From NCBI RefSeq assembly GCF_000496735.2, contig NZ_AYLO01000044.1, positions 1 to 64,000 on the forward strand: a stretch of DNA of 64,000 nucleotides. Reading direction: 5' to 3'. The notes below the pieces were generated by a model. It searched no databases and was not told the DNA's origin. It worked only from the letters and a program-made list of their open reading frames with translations. Source of the stretch: Methyloglobulus morosus KoM1 (lineage in GTDB: Bacteria > Pseudomonadota > Gammaproteobacteria > Methylococcales > Methylomonadaceae). Positions 6,503-12,980 of the stretch are shown here, piece after piece; the stretch's first letter is position 1, and the number at the start of each line of letters is the position of its first letter. The position numbers and the translations under genes were made by a program.

Positions 6503-7144
6503 ATGGCAAAACCATTAATCCAAATGGCATTAGATTCATTAGATTTCGACGCAACAGTAGGGCTTGCTACCCAAGTGGCACCTTATGTTGACATTTTTGA
6601 AATCGGAACTCCTTGCATTAAACACAACGGCGTTAACCTTGTTAGAGAATTACGTTCAAGATTCCCAGACAAGTTAATTCTTGTTGACCTTAAAACGATG
6701 GACGCTGGCGAATATGAAGCGACCCCTTTCTATGCGGCGGGTGCGGATATCTGCACAGTATTAGGCGTATCGGGTCTCGCAACGATTGCCGGTGTCGTTA
6801 AAGCGGCTAACGCACACGGTGCAGAAGCCCAAATCGACCTCATCAATGTTGACGACAAGATTGGCTGCGCTAAAGCATCTGCTGATCTAGGCGCACAAAT
6901 TGTTGGCGTACACACCGGTCTTGACGCTCAGGCGGCTGGCCACACTCCATTTGCTGATTTGAGCGATATCGCAAGATTAGGCTTGCCTGTCAGAATTTCA
7001 GTTGCTGGCGGTATTAAACAATCCACTGTGCAAGACGTTGTTCAAGCTGGCGCGAATATTATCGTGGTTGGTGCGGCAATTTATGGCGCTCCATCTCCTG
7101 CAGAAGCGGCTCGTGAGATCCGTGAATTGGTTGACGCGGCATAA
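6503..7144 (+). CDS. hps: 3-hexulose-6-phosphate synthase
   Basis: A 213-residue enzyme that condenses formaldehyde with D-ribulose 5-phosphate to D-arabino-3-hexulose 6-phosphate, the entry step of the RuMP cycle. It belongs to the orotidine-monophosphate decarboxylase superfamily of TIM barrels. The superfamily D-x-K-x-x-D active site is visible as DLKTMD (residues 62-67). FEIGTPCIKHNG near residue 32 and the phosphate-binding RISVAGGIKQST and IIVVGAAIYGAPSP segments are as expected. Full length. A GGAG Shine-Dalgarno lies 8 bases before the ATG. It is first in a run hps-phi-tkt. The distinctly regular codon use suggests high expression. Confidence 0.96.
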   Translation: MAKPLIQMALDSLDFDATVGLATQVAPYVDIFEIGTPCIKHNGVNLVRELRSRFPDKLILVDLKTMDAGEYEATPFYAAGADICTVLGVSGLATIAGVVKAANAHGAEAQIDLINVDDKIGCAKASADLGAQIVGVHTGLDAQAAGHTPFADLSDIARLGLPVRISVAGGIKQSTVQDVVQAGANIIVVGAAIYGAPSPAEAAREIRELVDAA

Positions 7145-7155
7145 TAAGGACTGAT

Positions 7156-7689
7156 ATGCATCAGAAACTTATCATAGATAAAATATCGAGCATCCTAGAT
7201 GCGACCGACAAGTCTCATGATGTCAGGCTGACAGAAATGCTTGATAGCGCAAGGCGTATATTTATCGCTGGTGCAGGTCGTTCTAAGTTGGTAGGCAATT
7301 TTTTTGCGATGCGGTTGGTGCACGGTGGCTACGATGTTAGCGTGGTCGGCGAAATTGTCACTCCCAGTATCAAAAATGGGGATTTGTTAATCATTATCTC
7401 GGGTTCAGGTGAAACCGAGCAATTGATCGCTTTTACCAAAAGCGCGAAAAAAGTTGGGGCCAAAATTGTCTTGATATCTGCCAAAAGCAGCTCAACTATC
7501 GGTGATATGGCTGATGCCGTGTTTGCGGTTGGCAGCCCAGACCAATATGGGAAAGTGGTCGGTATGCCAATGGGAACGGTTTTCGAACTGTCCACCTTGA
7601 TCTTCCTGGAAGCCATTGTTTCGCACATAATCCATGAGAAGGGGATTGCCGAGGAAGTCATGAGGGAAAGGCACGCCAATTTGGAATAA
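7156..7689 (+). CDS. phi: 6-phospho-3-hexuloisomerase
   Basis: A 177-residue SIS-domain isomerase that converts 3-hexulose 6-phosphate to fructose 6-phosphate, completing formaldehyde fixation. The sugar-phosphate-binding elements are clear: IFIAGAGRSKLVGNFFAMRL (residues 35-54), IISGSGETEQL, and KSSSTIGDMADAVFAVGSPDQYGKVVGMPMGT in parts. The C-terminal helix ends HIIHEKGIAEEVMRERHANLE, typical of HxlB/RmpB. It starts 11 bases after the hps stop with AAGGA as ribosome-binding site, so the two are co-transcribed. Length matches the stand-alone family. Confidence 0.95.
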   Translation: MHQKLIIDKISSILDATDKSHDVRLTEMLDSARRIFIAGAGRSKLVGNFFAMRLVHGGYDVSVVGEIVTPSIKNGDLLIIISGSGETEQLIAFTKSAKKVGAKIVLISAKSSSTIGDMADAVFAVGSPDQYGKVVGMPMGTVFELSTLIFLEAIVSHIIHEKGIAEEVMRERHANLE

Positions 7690-7820: not shown

Positions 7821-9815
7821 ATGACTTCGCGTCGTGAACTAGCGAACGCCATACGCGCTTTGAGCATGGATGCCGTACAGAAAGCAAACTCTGGACATCC
7901 AGGTGCGCCGATGGGTATGGCGGATATTGCCGAAGTGTTGTGGAATGACCACGTTCGGCACAACCCCGTCAATCCTAAGTGGGCCAATCGTGATAGATTT
8001 GTTTTATCCAATGGTCACGGTTCGATGTTGATTTATTCATTATTGCACTTGACGGGTTATGACCTTCCTATCGAAGAGCTTAAAAATTTCCGGCAGTTGC
8101 ATTCCAAAACGCCAGGCCATCCTGAATATGGCTATGCGCCCGGTATTGAAACCACCACAGGGCCGCTCGGTCAAGGCGTCACCAATGCAGTAGGTATGGC
8201 AATTGCTGAAAAAGCATTGGCAGCCCAGTTCAATAAAGACGGTCATAAAATCGTTGACCACAAAACATACGTATTCCTAGGCGACGGTTGCTTGATGGAA
8301 GGTATCTCGCACGAAGCTTGTTCCTTGGCTGGAACACTGGGCCTGGGTAATTTGATTGCGTTCTGGGATGATAACGGCATCTCGATTGACGGTCATGTCG
8401 AGGGTTGGTTTACCGATAATACGCCAAAACGTTTTGAAGCTTACGGTTGGCATGTCATACCTGATGTTGATGGTCATGACGCTAATGCAATTGCCAAGGC
8501 CATTGAAATGGCAAAGGCGATGACTGACAAACCGACAATGATTTGCTGCAAAACAACCATTGGCTTTGGCTCGCCAAACAAGGCGGGTACGCATGCTTGC
8601 CACGGTGCAGCCCTGGGTGATGCAGAAGTCAATTTGACGAAAGCGGCATTAGGTTGGGATCACGGGCCATTTGAAATTCCTGCCGATGTCTACGCAGGCT
8701 GGGATGCAAAAGCAAAAGGCACAAAAGCGGAACAAGACTGGAATGTCAAGTTTGCTTCGTATAAAGCGGCTTATCCTGAATTAGCAGCAGAATTTGAACG
8801 GCGCATGAACGGCGATTTGCCCAAAACGTGGGCGGCTGATGCGGATAAGTTTATCAGTGCCGTCAATGACGAAGCCAAAACGACCGCGACTAGACTTTCT
8901 TCCTTGGCTGCAATCGAAGGTTATGCCAATTTGTTGCCCGAAATTTTTGGCGGTTCGGCTGATTTGGGTTGCTCCAATATGACCGAATGGAAAGGCCACA
9001 AGCCCATGCGGGCGGATAAGCCTGATGCCAATTATGTCAATTACGGTGTCCGTGAGTTCGGCATGTCTGCCATCATGAACGGCATTGCCTTGCACGGTGG
9101 TTTGATTCCCTTTGGCGCCACTTTCCTCATGTTCTCGGAATATGCCCGTAATGCGGTGCGTATGTCGGCTTTGATGGGAATCCGCTCCATTTTTGTCTAT
9201 ACCCATGATTCTATCGGCCTCGGTGAAGACGGGCCGACCCATCAACCAGTTGAGCAAACGGCTACCTTGCGGATGATCCCTAATATGCAAGTCTGGCGCC
9301 CTTGTGATGCGGTCGAAACGGCAGCTTGCTGGAGGGCGGCAATCGAGCGCAAGAATGGCCCTAGCGTCTTAGTGTTCTCGCGCCAGAATTTGCCGCACAT
9401 GCCCCGTACTGCGGAGCAATTACAAGGCATCTACCGTGGCGGTTATATCCTGAAAGATGCGGGTGGTACGCCGGACGCAATCATTATTGCAACCGGATCG
9501 GAAGTTGAACTGGCTGTTAAAGCCGCTGATGAATTAGCGGCAAAGGGCAAGAAAATCCGAGTGGTTTCTATGCCGTCGACAAACTTGTTCGACGCCCAAG
9601 ATGAAGCCTACCGGGAATCGGTATTGCCTGTGGCGGTCAGCAAGCGCGTCGCAGTGGAAGCGGGCGTTACTGATGGTTGGTGGAAATATGTGGGCACTAA
9701 TGGCAAGATTGTTGGATTAAACCGCTTTGGCGAATCCGCGCCAGCAGGTCAATTATTCAAGGAGTTTGGTTTTACGGTCGAAAATGTAGTCAAGCACGTA
9801 GAGGCGGTGCTTTAA
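7821..9815 (+). CDS. tkt: transketolase
   Basis: A 664-residue thiamine-diphosphate enzyme transferring two-carbon units between ketoses and aldoses; here it regenerates the RuMP acceptor. The N-terminal TPP domain has the substrate motif [19 protein letters not shown] (residues 24-42) and the GDG...N cofactor motif ([15 protein letters not shown] ... [10 protein letters not shown]). The pyrimidine domain has [19 protein letters not shown] and [18 protein letters not shown]. The C-terminal domain is complete. Length equals E. coli TktA. A strong AGGAGA precedes the ATG. There is a 131-base gap after phi, so a second promoter is possible. Confidence 0.96.
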
Positions 9816-9909: not shown

Positions 9910-10587
9910 GTGAAAAATATTGATTTGACCAAAAGTGTATTTGCTGCGCTCCTGCTGGTTAGCAGTGTAGCGGGTGCAGAAGACAAGTATCCAGCATCTG
10001 ATTTTCAACCCAAAGTGGTTTTTCAAGATGAAGAGGCAGGAAAGCAAGCGAGCAGTCCAAGTTCATCAACTAGTGCATCGTCTTCGGGCTCTTCCAGTAG
10101 TAGTGATTCCCAATATCCTGCCGCAAACTTTGAGCCTAAAGTCCTCTATTCTGATGCAGATTACAAACATACCGAAGCTAGCCCAGGTTCAGGATCATCC
10201 TCATCGTCAGTTGCTGATTCAGGTTCGGCTGTGAGTGAAGCTGCGGCCACAACAGCGAAAGATGATTACTCAGCAGGTTATTTCCTGGGTTTAATCGTGT
10301 TAGGCATTGCAGGCTATATCTTGTTTAAGAAAGGCGCAGGCTTAGGTGCAACTGCAAAAAGCAGTGCATCTGCACCGAAAGCAGGTGGGCTTACTGGTGT
10401 TGCTAGGTATGTGCTTAAAACTTCAGGAACTGGTGTAACCCGATATCTGGAGAAAAACGCAAAAGCCGCGCCGTCCTCTGCTGCGACTGGCGTAGCAAAA
10501 TACTTGGCAAGCCACGACCAGTCTGCTACGTCTTCGACACGCAAAGCTGCTACTGGCGTTGAAAAATACATGCGTAACAAGGGGTAA
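9910..10587 (+). CDS. membrane-anchored TGVxxYL-repeat protein (novel)
   Basis: A 225-residue protein that I do not recognise as a named family. I chose the GTG at 9910 because AGGG lies 8 bases upstream and a clean signal peptide follows (MKNIDLTKSVFAALLLVSSV, cleavage after AGA). Then come two copies of a YPAxxFxPKVxx motif (YPASDFQPKVVF, residues 27-38; YPAANFEPKVLY, 69-80) separated by serine-rich linkers. A single transmembrane helix follows at about 121-140 (YFLGLIVLGIAGYILFKKG). The presumed cytoplasmic tail has four copies of T-G-V-x-[KR]-Y: TGVARYV, TGVTRYL, TGVAKYL, TGVEKYM (Tyr/Arg-Tyr positions near 167, 179, 198, 220). It ends three bases before the next gene, which carries 15 more such motifs. 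Function unknown; a membrane anchor for a multivalent complex is inferred. Confidence 0.8.
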   Translation: MKNIDLTKSVFAALLLVSSVAGAEDKYPASDFQPKVVFQDEEAGKQASSPSSSTSASSSGSSSSSDSQYPAANFEPKVLYSDADYKHTEASPGSGSSSSSVADSGSAVSEAAATTAKDDYSAGYFLGLIVLGIAGYILFKKGAGLGATAKSSASAPKAGGLTGVARYVLKTSGTGVTRYLEKNAKAAPSSAATGVAKYLASHDQSATSSTRKAATGVEKYMRNKG

Positions 10588-10590
10588 TTA

Positions 10591-11811
10591 ATGAATCAAA
10601 CCAACTTTGGCGTGGCGGTTATTCCTGCGATGACTGGCTTTTTTTCGTTTGGAAAACGAGCCAAAGTTCGGGAGATTCAAGAAGTGCTTCCCAAACATTT
10701 ACCTGCGGTCATAAAGGCTGAAGATAACAGCCTTACTGGGGTGGCTAAATATTTGCTCGCAGCGCCTTTGGTGACAAGCGTTGCCAAATACATGAAGAAA
10801 CAAGAAAAGCACCCAATTACCGGAGTGGCTAAATATGTTTTACGGCAGGCCATAGCCGACAGAAATGCACCGTTGCCAACGGGTGTTGCAAAGTATCTTG
10901 CCCAAGCGGCAAAACAACCTATTGCACCAAGAAAATCAGGGGTTGCCAAATACTTAGCCAAGCAGGCATTGGCGGCACCTAATTTGGACCTGTTGACGGG
11001 TGTCGCAAAATATCAGGCAGAACAAGACTTAATTGCCAAGAAAAAGGCTATTGCCGTGAAAATTCAACAATACAAGGAAGCTGATTTGGCAGCTGCAAAG
11101 GCTGCTAGAGAATCTGCGGAAGCAGCTTATGAGTCGTCCAAGATCTCAGATGAGTTGCAATACGAACAAGCCGTTGAGATGACTGCAACTACACGGTTGG
11201 GTCGGTACATACAAGAACAGGCGGAGTTGTTAAAAAAACGACCTAAAGCGACCAGCGTATCCAAATATATTAACAAGAAAATAGTGTTGGATAGCCAGAA
11301 ACCTGTTGTAAAGTTGAGTAAAGTGGCCAAGTACCTAAAAGATCAGGAACTGGTTCAAAGCAAGAAACCGACCCTTACAGGAGTATCTCGCTATTTGGCA
11401 AAACAACCCATTGTCAAAAATACACCGAAACCAAAAGAAAATCTGGGGCAAAGTGGCGTGGCGCGTTATTTGGCAGGGCAATCAGCGATTGAAAGCAATA
11501 AGCCAGCCCTATCTGGCGTTGCGAAATACTTGGCTAAACAAGCTCAGCTTGATCAAATAAATAAAGATACGCTGAGGTTGGTAGACCACAGTACGGTAAA
11601 ACTTTTGGAAGGGGAGTTTATCCCTGCGAACAGCTTTGCTCCTGCTACCGGCGTTTCAAGGTATCTTGAAAGGCAAGAGTCCGTTGTTTCCATTGCAAAA
11701 GAAAGTGTCACAGGGGTTTCCAGGTATCTTGAAAGACAAGGCCGTTCTGTAAAGCAGGCCATGGCATCCGCGCCAACGGGTGTCGATCGGTACTTGTTGA
11801 AACGGGCATAA
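10591..11811 (+). CDS. soluble TGVxKYL-repeat protein (novel)
   Basis: A 406-residue basic, alanine/lysine/glutamine-rich protein with no signal peptide, no membrane segment and no enzymatic motif. It carries 15 copies of [TS]-[GS]-V-x-[KR]-Y-[LMVI] (two are degenerate). Motif tyrosines fall at about residues 54, 67, 82, 102, 121, 141, 206, 226, 248, 268, 293, 313, 358, 379 and 401. Spacing is mostly 19-22 residues, and the two larger gaps are near multiples of that; the first gap (142-200) looks like a charged helix. The gene is coupled to the preceding membrane-anchored protein with the same motif and sits between transketolase and transaldolase. The pattern resembles multivalent linker proteins such as CsoS2 or EPYC1 in logic, not in sequence. 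Role unknown. Confidence 0.82.
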   Translation: MNQTNFGVAVIPAMTGFFSFGKRAKVREIQEVLPKHLPAVIKAEDNSLTGVAKYLLAAPLVTSVAKYMKKQEKHPITGVAKYVLRQAIADRNAPLPTGVAKYLAQAAKQPIAPRKSGVAKYLAKQALAAPNLDLLTGVAKYQAEQDLIAKKKAIAVKIQQYKEADLAAAKAARESAEAAYESSKISDELQYEQAVEMTATTRLGRYIQEQAELLKKRPKATSVSKYINKKIVLDSQKPVVKLSKVAKYLKDQELVQSKKPTLTGVSRYLAKQPIVKNTPKPKENLGQSGVARYLAGQSAIESNKPALSGVAKYLAKQAQLDQINKDTLRLVDHSTVKLLEGEFIPANSFAPATGVSRYLERQESVVSIAKESVTGVSRYLERQGRSVKQAMASAPTGVDRYLLKRA

Positions 11812-11975: not shown

Positions 11976-12980
11976 ATGGCTAAGAATTTACTTGAACAAC
12001 TCAGAGAAATGACTGTTGTTGTGGCTGATACCGGCGACATCCAAGCCATTGAAACTTTCAAGCCCCAAGACGCAACGACAAACCCATCCTTGATTACGGC
12101 TGCGGCGCAAATGCCGCAATATCAGGATATTGTTGACGATACCTTGAAAGCCGCCAGGAATTCCCTTGGCAATGATGCAACATCCGCACAAGTCGCTTCT
12201 TTGGCGTTTGATCGTTTGGCGGTATCTTTCGGTTTAAAAATACTGGAGATAATACCGGGCCGTGTTTCGACGGAAGTGGATGCCCGGCTATCTTACGACA
12301 CCGAGGCGACCATCGCAAAAGGCCGTGAAATTATTGCTCAATACGAAGCCAAAGGCATTTCCAAAGAACGTGTGTTGATTAAGGTCGCCTCGACATGGGA
12401 AGGTATACAAGCGGCAGCGGTATTGGAAAAAGAAGGTATCCACTGCAACCTGACTTTGTTGTTTGGCTTGCACCAGGCCATTGCCTGTGCAGAGAACGGC
12501 ATCACCTTGATCTCACCTTTTGTGGGACGTATCCTGGACTGGTACAAGAAAGATACCGGACGTGATTCCTATCCGGCCGCTGAAGATCCCGGTGTTGTTT
12601 CAGTAACCGATGTATACAACTATTACAAAAAATTTGGTTACAAGACCGAAGTGATGGGAGCGAGCTTCCGTAACATCGGCGAAATAACCGAACTGGCTGG
12701 CGTTGATTTATTGACCATTGCCCCGTCCTTGCTGTCCGAGTTGCAATCAACAGAAGGCGAATTGCCACGTAAACTTGATCCGCAAACAGCCGCACAAAAA
12801 TCTATCGAAAAAATATCGATGGATAAAGCCACTTTTGATCGTATGCACCAAGAAAACCGTATGGCCAACGATAAATTGGCGGAAGGTATTTTGGGTTTTG
12901 AAAAAGCACTGGAAGCCCTCGAAGAACTATTGTCTGCACGGCTTGCTAAGCTTGAGCACAAAGAATCCGTCCCTGCTTAA
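11976..12980 (+). CDS. tal: transaldolase
   Basis: A 334-residue class I transaldolase of the TalB type, transferring a dihydroxyacetone unit in RuMP acceptor regeneration. The catalytic Schiff-base lysine is K136 in [15 protein letters not shown]; the conserved TTNPSLI (residues 35-41) and [16 protein letters not shown] segments are present, as is the phosphate-binding [11 protein letters not shown] chose the ATG at 11976 because the family start MAKNLLEQL begins there and CGAAAGG lies 10 bases upstream; the open frame extends further up without merit. It is followed by a terminator and then fba. Confidence 0.95.

Follow-up and report, generated by a model that had tools for sequence, protein, structure and literature searches.

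A motif-array gene pair at the ribulose monophosphate locus of Methyloglobulus morosus: a candidate scaffold for formaldehyde-fixing enzymes

The locus and its two motif proteins

The ribulose monophosphate (RuMP) locus of Methyloglobulus morosus KoM1 includes two adjacent genes, named here memA and solB, whose products carry repeated copies of a short motif, [TS][GS]Vx[KR]Y[LMVI], and could serve as a scaffold for the enzymes of this pathway. The window, i.e., the whole stretch of DNA that was analysed, comprises 64,000 nucleotides of contig NZ_AYLO01000044.1 (positions 1 to 64,000, forward strand). The genes lie on the + strand in the order hps (3-hexulose-6-phosphate synthase, 6503–7144), phi (6-phospho-3-hexuloisomerase, 7156–7689), tkt (transketolase, 7821–9815), memA (membrane protein of 225 amino acids (aa) with a GTG start, 9910–10587), solB (soluble motif-array protein of 406 aa with an ATG start, 10591–11811) and tal (transaldolase, about 11976 to 12980). 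The four enzyme genes were named by sequence recognition (hps without a family scan). Thus memA and solB, separated by three bases, are situated between tkt and tal, beside hps–phi; a preliminary description made from the sequence alone had placed both genes correctly, in agreement with the positions of the open reading frames (ORFs).

The memA product consists of a signal peptide, periplasmic YPA motifs, one transmembrane (TM) helix and a motif-bearing tail. The first YPAxxFxPKV motif occupies residues 27–38 (9988–10023, +) and the second residues 69–80 (10114–10149, +), and the TM helix spans residues 122–141 (10273–10332, +), corresponding to helix H122-141 of the AlphaFold model; alignment and modelling thereby support this part of the preliminary description. 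Four copies of the motif start at residues 162, 174, 193 and 215 (10393–10572, +), with gaps of 12, 19 and 22 residues. A cytoplasmic orientation of the tail is most likely, because the flank following the TM helix is more positively charged than the preceding one in all 37 memA homologues, a few of which are near-identical. The model as a whole is of low confidence (mean predicted local distance difference test score, pLDDT, 58; predicted template modelling score, pTM, 0.17).

Other proteins resemble parts of memA. A secreted protein of 134 aa, encoded in the same genome (L119:3925-4329, contig C141), contains four YPAxxF-type repeats as in memA and no motif array, and matches to the YPA part are found in many Methylococcales. 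Genomes of family f6 encode memA-like proteins (L105, L109, L114, L115) that have YPA motifs together with a TM-like stretch, and in which a basic NRQRANKTKR-type tail end replaces the motif; no RuMP gene is present on these stretches. In two single-contig Methylococcaceae-like genomes (L102 of G039 and L113 of G054) the memA frames are broken; at L102 tkt is fragmented too, and sequencing errors are possible.

The solB product begins with a hydrophobic N-terminal stretch; six motif copies then extend to residue 142 and are followed by a central helix, five copies, the stretch LEGEFIPA and three further copies. The N-terminal array starts at residues 49, 62, 77, 97, 116 and 136 (10735–11019, +; the last copy is TGVAKYQ), and the C-terminal array at residues 221, 243, 263, 288, 308, 353, 374 and 396 (11251–11796, +). 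LEGEFIPA (residues 339–346; 11605–11628, +) is common to many soluble homologues. The Ala-rich central helix (residues 138–198; 11002–11184, +) is the best-predicted part of the AlphaFold model, its pLDDT by block being 83, 92, 95, 97, 95 and 88 before falling to 68 at residues 191–200. Overall the model is again of low confidence (mean pLDDT 69, pTM 0.27) and presents separate helices with no global fold. The gaps between strict motifs are 13, 15, 20, 19, 105, 42, 25, 20, 45, 21 and 22 residues, so the regular spacing of 19–22 residues proposed earlier applies only partly to solB itself; it describes the soluble family better, where the modal gap is 20 (116 gaps), followed by 15 (29 gaps).

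Both proteins were compared with Pfam, NCBIfam and PHROGs, and nothing was found above the cut-off or below E 0.005, in agreement with the earlier statement that neither contains an enzyme domain. For solB, the PDB gave no sequence match and a Foldseek search against the PDB no match with E ≤ 0.001. Three profiles were constructed for wider searches: A1 (membrane protein, from the window sequence and 27 of 37 candidates), A2 (soluble protein, from the window sequence and 27 of 29 candidates) and A3 (27 members of the arrays of Methylophagaceae, described below); with A3, the PDB yielded nothing below E 0.37. When all members of A2 and A3 were scanned individually, weak matches to unrelated families were scattered among them, mostly in one or two members each. 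The most frequent were ATP_synth_reg (PF14960; 8 of 27 A3 members, best E 1.5e-05) and U1snRNP70_N (10 of 28 A2 members, best E 3.7e-06). Membership in either is improbable: for the one protein with a bit score shown in each case the cut-off was missed (L179, 18.4 bits vs 25; solB, 17.8 bits vs 23), and the resemblance to the motif probably arose by chance or convergence. A folded repeat (solenoid) protein was likewise disfavoured by the separate helices, the pTM of 0.27 and the lack of a Foldseek match, although the low confidence of the model keeps this from being a full exclusion. No description of these proteins was found in the literature on motif strings, scaffolds, metabolons, membranes and Methylophaga. 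In the libraries searched, neither a curated family nor a solved structure nor a publication covers the proteins.

Motif number and conservation

The strict pattern occurs four times in memA and 12 times in solB (16 in total), and the looser core Vx[KR]Y[LMVIQ] four and 14 times, respectively. The preliminary description was right about the array and too generous in its count of 19 motifs, which requires a still looser rule than the 18 of the looser core; the extra copy was probably, at a guess, LGRYI near residue 203 of solB. In 20,000 residue shuffles the strict motif appeared on average 0.0007 and 0.00075 times, with a maximum of one, and among the 52 non-overlapping window ORFs of at least 100 aa it is confined to memA and solB. 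A degenerate DNA pattern, limited to the TG and SG forms and thus not covering TS-type copies, matched the genome of M. morosus 20 times: 14 matches lie inside memA and solB and six are isolated. The isolated matches are within chance expectation, since a reversed control pattern matched the same genome 11 times.

Collected from relatives, the motif amounts to 378 copies in 35 soluble proteins and 119 copies in 43 membrane proteins, with the common form [T/S][G/S]V[A/S][K/R]YL. A Gln residue three positions past the motif Leu is found in 58% of the soluble and 32% of the membrane copies. When one slot at a time was freed in 153 ORFs, the V slot contained 799 V and one L, the Y slot 799 Y and two F, and the first slot 578 T, 221 S and no other residue; the ORFs were selected as having at least two full motifs and fewer than 760 aa, which makes these counts partly circular. 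The enzymes of the pathway do not carry the motif themselves (0 copies in 461 RuMP-enzyme ORFs, 136,348 aa). In the low-confidence AlphaFold models, a helix starts one residue after the T/S in 16 of 18 copies and two residues after it in the other two. Many copies of one conserved short motif, set in sequence that is otherwise poorly conserved and lacks a global fold, are what a multivalent linear-motif scaffold is expected to have, and the conservation supports a motif that acts like a specifically recognized short helix.

The repeats could also be amphipathic helices that bind lipid, shaping or coating the intracytoplasmic membranes, instead of binding a protein. The predicted structure of the motif is a short helix; two examples have hydrophobic moments of 0.30 and 0.43 (given here with no control), and memA is membrane-anchored. 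The near invariance of V and Y, where lipid binding would allow similar residues, favours a protein partner over lipid. Moreover, arrays occur in Methylophagaceae, which are not known to possess such membranes, and within the linker of a soluble kinase (see below). The membrane-shaping explanation is consequently a less likely one, and rather improbable.

Association with RuMP genes and with one clade of Hps

The preliminary description had proposed examining whether the pair co-occurs with hps, phi, tkt and tal. In a set of 61 Methylococcales genomes (M. morosus and 60 relatives), an array was called at the RuMP locus when a stretch held at least two strict motifs together with any of the genes hps, phi, tkt and tal. 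Arrays of the memA and/or solB type adjoin these genes in 45 of the 61 genomes. An Hps match is present in 49 genomes, and 43 of these have a RuMP-adjoining array. The array gene is thus linked to, and co-distributed with, the pathway, as would be expected of a scaffold gene, though carriers outside the pathway exist. Homologues residing mainly in organisms without the RuMP pathway, the outcome that would have spoken against the proposal, were not observed in the genome surveys.

The six hps-bearing genomes without an array are G011, G041, G047, G055, G057 and G058. The first is a 77% complete draft with a fused hps only and no RuMP array. The Hps of the other five is just 63–68% identical to that of the window, and no tkt or tal match was found in the 18-kb stretch around their hps–phi. 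Two genomes (G014, G036) have an array and no Hps match, their RuMP block being cut by contig ends, and in the remaining ten of the 61 neither array nor Hps was found. One of the 45, G052 of family f6, has an array contig identical to that of G038 over at least 2 kb (L112 vs L101), which is probably a binning error between bins of different families; without it the counts are 44/61 and 42/49.

The intact order hps–phi–tkt–array–tal is present in 31 of the 61 genomes, many contigs being cut. Among 22 named Methylococcales loci from an Hps scan, at least three of which repeat genomes already counted, 16 have both tkt and tal, and the array lies between them in 15; the exception is L230, whose memA has a single motif. 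Tandem hps–phi–tkt units, each followed by an array gene, occur three times in L078 (G017) and twice in L070 (G009). A direct repeat of RuMP genes has been reported for the Methylococcus capsulatus genome (PMC517821).

Constant linkage to hps and tal would suit a regulator equally well, i.e., an array that controls flux by sequestering or sensing an enzyme or metabolite of the RuMP pathway, rather than concentrating enzymes, and the occurrence of the motif in the kinase discussed below hints at signalling. Arrays of up to about 18 motifs and their co-amplification with enzyme units look stoichiometric instead, and regulation is a less likely explanation, the least probable of those considered here.

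Class-wide profile searches matched Methylococcales and one more family, Methylophagaceae (Methylophaga and relatives), which was identified via its Hps. Loci were assigned to the Methylophagaceae type by Hps identity of 80–100% (L172-L212, L225, L229, L241, L242 and L246, two of which come from one assembly), and their arrays were counted by the loose motif rule with at least two copies. The array protein, 59–204 residues long as listed, contains a Phe-rich N-terminal stretch and several TGVERYIRNQ-like copies. In 42 loci of the Methylophagaceae type the contig includes tal; the array adjoins it in all of them and directly follows hps in 40. Four further loci lie on contigs that do not include tal. 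In a survey of 57 Methylophagaceae genomes, 54 gave a match and 45 had a short array frame. No memA was seen at the loci read, and in the three members of the family searched with the memA profile the match was confined to the motif part. The earlier suggestion of a tether to the intracytoplasmic membrane is therefore best confined to Methylococcales, where memA is membrane-anchored judging from its sequence; it does not extend to a common core, the array of Methylophagaceae being soluble and no memA having been seen there. The Phe-rich N-terminus has a hydrophobic moment of 0.36 and 0.38 in two proteins, within the range of other N-termini (0.11–0.44) and given with no control.

A class survey of 369 genomes yielded six matching genomes each for A1 and A2, all of them Methylococcales or Methylophagaceae, and six for A3, one of which is weak and not an array (G251). 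In a phylum survey, one of 398 genomes matched, namely M. morosus itself. No array was found elsewhere in the profile surveys of the class (369) and phylum (398); these samples overlap, and in some genomes only part of the first-look candidates was scored. Seventeen selected genomes were also searched, among them eight whose Hps is more distant and five Methylococcales that have hps and lack an array; the single match was the non-RuMP protein of G011.

In a FastTree phylogeny of 153 distinct Hps sequences, 77 of the Methylophagaceae type, 59 from Methylococcales and two fused Hps form a clade with a support of 0.999. The array label of the Methylococcales in this tree was assigned by locus and includes L224, L233 and L234 (the contig ends before any array is visible), L230 with its one-motif membrane protein, and hps stretches located separately in genomes that bear an array. 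Outside the clade are the Hps of array-less lineages (G041, G047, G055, G057, G058 and G052), two Methylophilaceae and Truepera. The distribution fits inheritance or transfer of hps, array and tal as one cassette, in either direction. The most constant neighbour of the array is Tal, and the best match by phylogeny, judged from the Hps tree, is Hps.

Proposed mechanism, other motif carriers and relation to known systems

Taken together, memA and solB could form a scaffold that serves the RuMP pathway through multivalent short linear motifs, a reading to which we assign a probability of about one half. This reading is based on the observed array, its invariance, the helices predicted at low confidence, the topology deduced from sequence, the linkage to the locus in two groups and the co-distribution with a single clade of Hps. 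Each motif, [T/S]-[G/S]-V-x-[K/R]-Y-[L/I], frequently with x-x-Q after it, would form a short helix N-capped by T/S, with V and Y as the recognized face. Cytoplasmic solB would present 12–14 copies around its long central helix, and memA in the inner membrane would display four copies toward the cytoplasm. Both could bind the same oligomeric protein of the RuMP locus, most likely Hps or Tal. The scaffold would bring copies of the enzyme together and, in methanotrophs, keep them at the inner membrane, the site of formaldehyde arrival, with formaldehyde capture as the presumed benefit of clustering; outside Methylococcales, anchoring could perhaps be achieved through amphipathic N-termini.

The motif is also found away from the RuMP genes. 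The second carrier in Methylophagaceae is a multi-Hpt kinase of the ChpA/PilL type (named by recognition), frames of which (733–2065 aa) were matched in 37 of 57 genomes. The six kinases read (L299-L304), one of which is truncated at the edge of its contig, contain 4–7 motifs in one linker region, and both of those scanned have Hpt domains. In 29 copies, positions 4, 5 and 7 are E, R and I, as in the RuMP-locus arrays of the same family; in Methylococcales they are A, K and L. This shared flavour suggests that the kinases and the RuMP-locus arrays of Methylophagaceae have one common partner. A Methylophagaceae ChpA query matched only two of 15 Methylococcales genomes, the search being probably too weak to reveal every orthologue; no motif was present in the two ChpA-like regions read (M. 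morosus and G022, both weak matches). A third motif protein occurs in seven Methylococcales genomes (L072, L104, L120, L121, L296, L297 and L298). It has a MAKNLFEQF-like N-terminus, 3–9 motifs and a cysteine-rich C-terminal domain (QCxAxTxxGxxC...CxQH). No RuMP gene was recognized at its loci, a Fae-like gene, recognized by eye, being located near that of L121; in M. morosus the search with the TG/SG pattern, which does not reach TS-type motifs, revealed no such protein. The association with the RuMP island noted in the preliminary description thus holds for two separate groups, whereas a role in this pathway only is too narrow.

Since ChpA-type kinases and a non-RuMP protein carry the motif, its partner is perhaps not a RuMP enzyme. 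The motif could instead be bound by a general cytoplasmic hub, such as a component of the chemosensory or type IV pilus apparatus or a landmark of the cell pole, at which arrays place RuMP enzymes or ChpA while no RuMP enzyme itself binds the motif. The occurrence of 4–7 linker motifs in the kinases, together with the E, R and I that these share with the RuMP-locus arrays, raises this explanation to the main rival. It is countered by the two motif-free ChpA-like regions of Methylococcales, and by the distribution of the arrays, which follow one Hps clade; the remaining genomes of the class sample, in which such hubs are common, yielded none. A hub is on balance doubtful.

Several further observations, like the additional carriers, weigh against a RuMP scaffold. 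Confidence in both AlphaFold models is low (mean pLDDT 58 and 69). The length of the array varies from one motif (L230) to about 18. Two Methylophilaceae, the f6 genomes and others possess hps–phi without any array. In the Hps tree, the deeper nodes are weak (0.37–0.71), and the clade does not include a third fused Hps, which comes from G024, a genome with an array. Between the array-bearing clade and nine outside sequences, just two sites of Hps differ consistently, and so no interaction surface of Hps can be named.

In a broader and tentative picture, unlikely to hold in all its parts, an undescribed motif-and-anchor system of gammaproteobacterial RuMP methylotrophs would gather formaldehyde-fixing enzymes in a membrane-associated body, would have been inherited along with one Hps clade, or transferred with it, and would be wired to ChpA in Methylophagaceae. 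If this is true, the ChpA link would couple one-carbon flux to surface behaviour in that family.

How methanotrophs control toxic, freely diffusing formaldehyde during its fast fixation is an open question. If a natural scaffold is encoded next to the RuMP genes in 43 of the 49 Methylococcales genomes with hps, and in another form in Methylophagaceae, the spatial organization of the pathway would become directly testable. Even with another partner, near-absolute identity of the motif over about 800 copies points to an undescribed, specific interaction. The 3-hexulose phosphate synthase of Methylococcus capsulatus was reportedly found in the 1970s to be large and partly particulate, a background point not counted as evidence here.

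Two natural systems are similar in the proposed mode of action. EPYC1, the linker of the algal pyrenoid, is likewise a low-complexity protein with a short helical motif at near-regular intervals, serving one carbon-fixing pathway; the motif, the enzyme and the pathway differ, there is no family match in the libraries searched, and binding by memA and solB is only proposed. CsoS2, which takes part in alpha-carboxysome assembly, is likewise bacterial and disordered, with repeated short motifs and a gene adjoining the enzyme genes. Membership in its family was rejected, as neither the window proteins nor the 28 soluble A2 proteins gave a Pfam or NCBIfam match to it, and no carboxysome-type shell genes were noticed in the loci read, which were not searched for them specifically. 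Engineered fusions and assemblies of Mdh, Hps and Phi (PMC8879981) share the goal of bringing formaldehyde-fixing enzymes together; they are man-made, whereas memA and solB are natural and encoded by separate genes. A scaffold of the memA–solB kind would supply parts for synthetic methylotrophy, where artificial enzyme assemblies are already being tried (PMC8879981).

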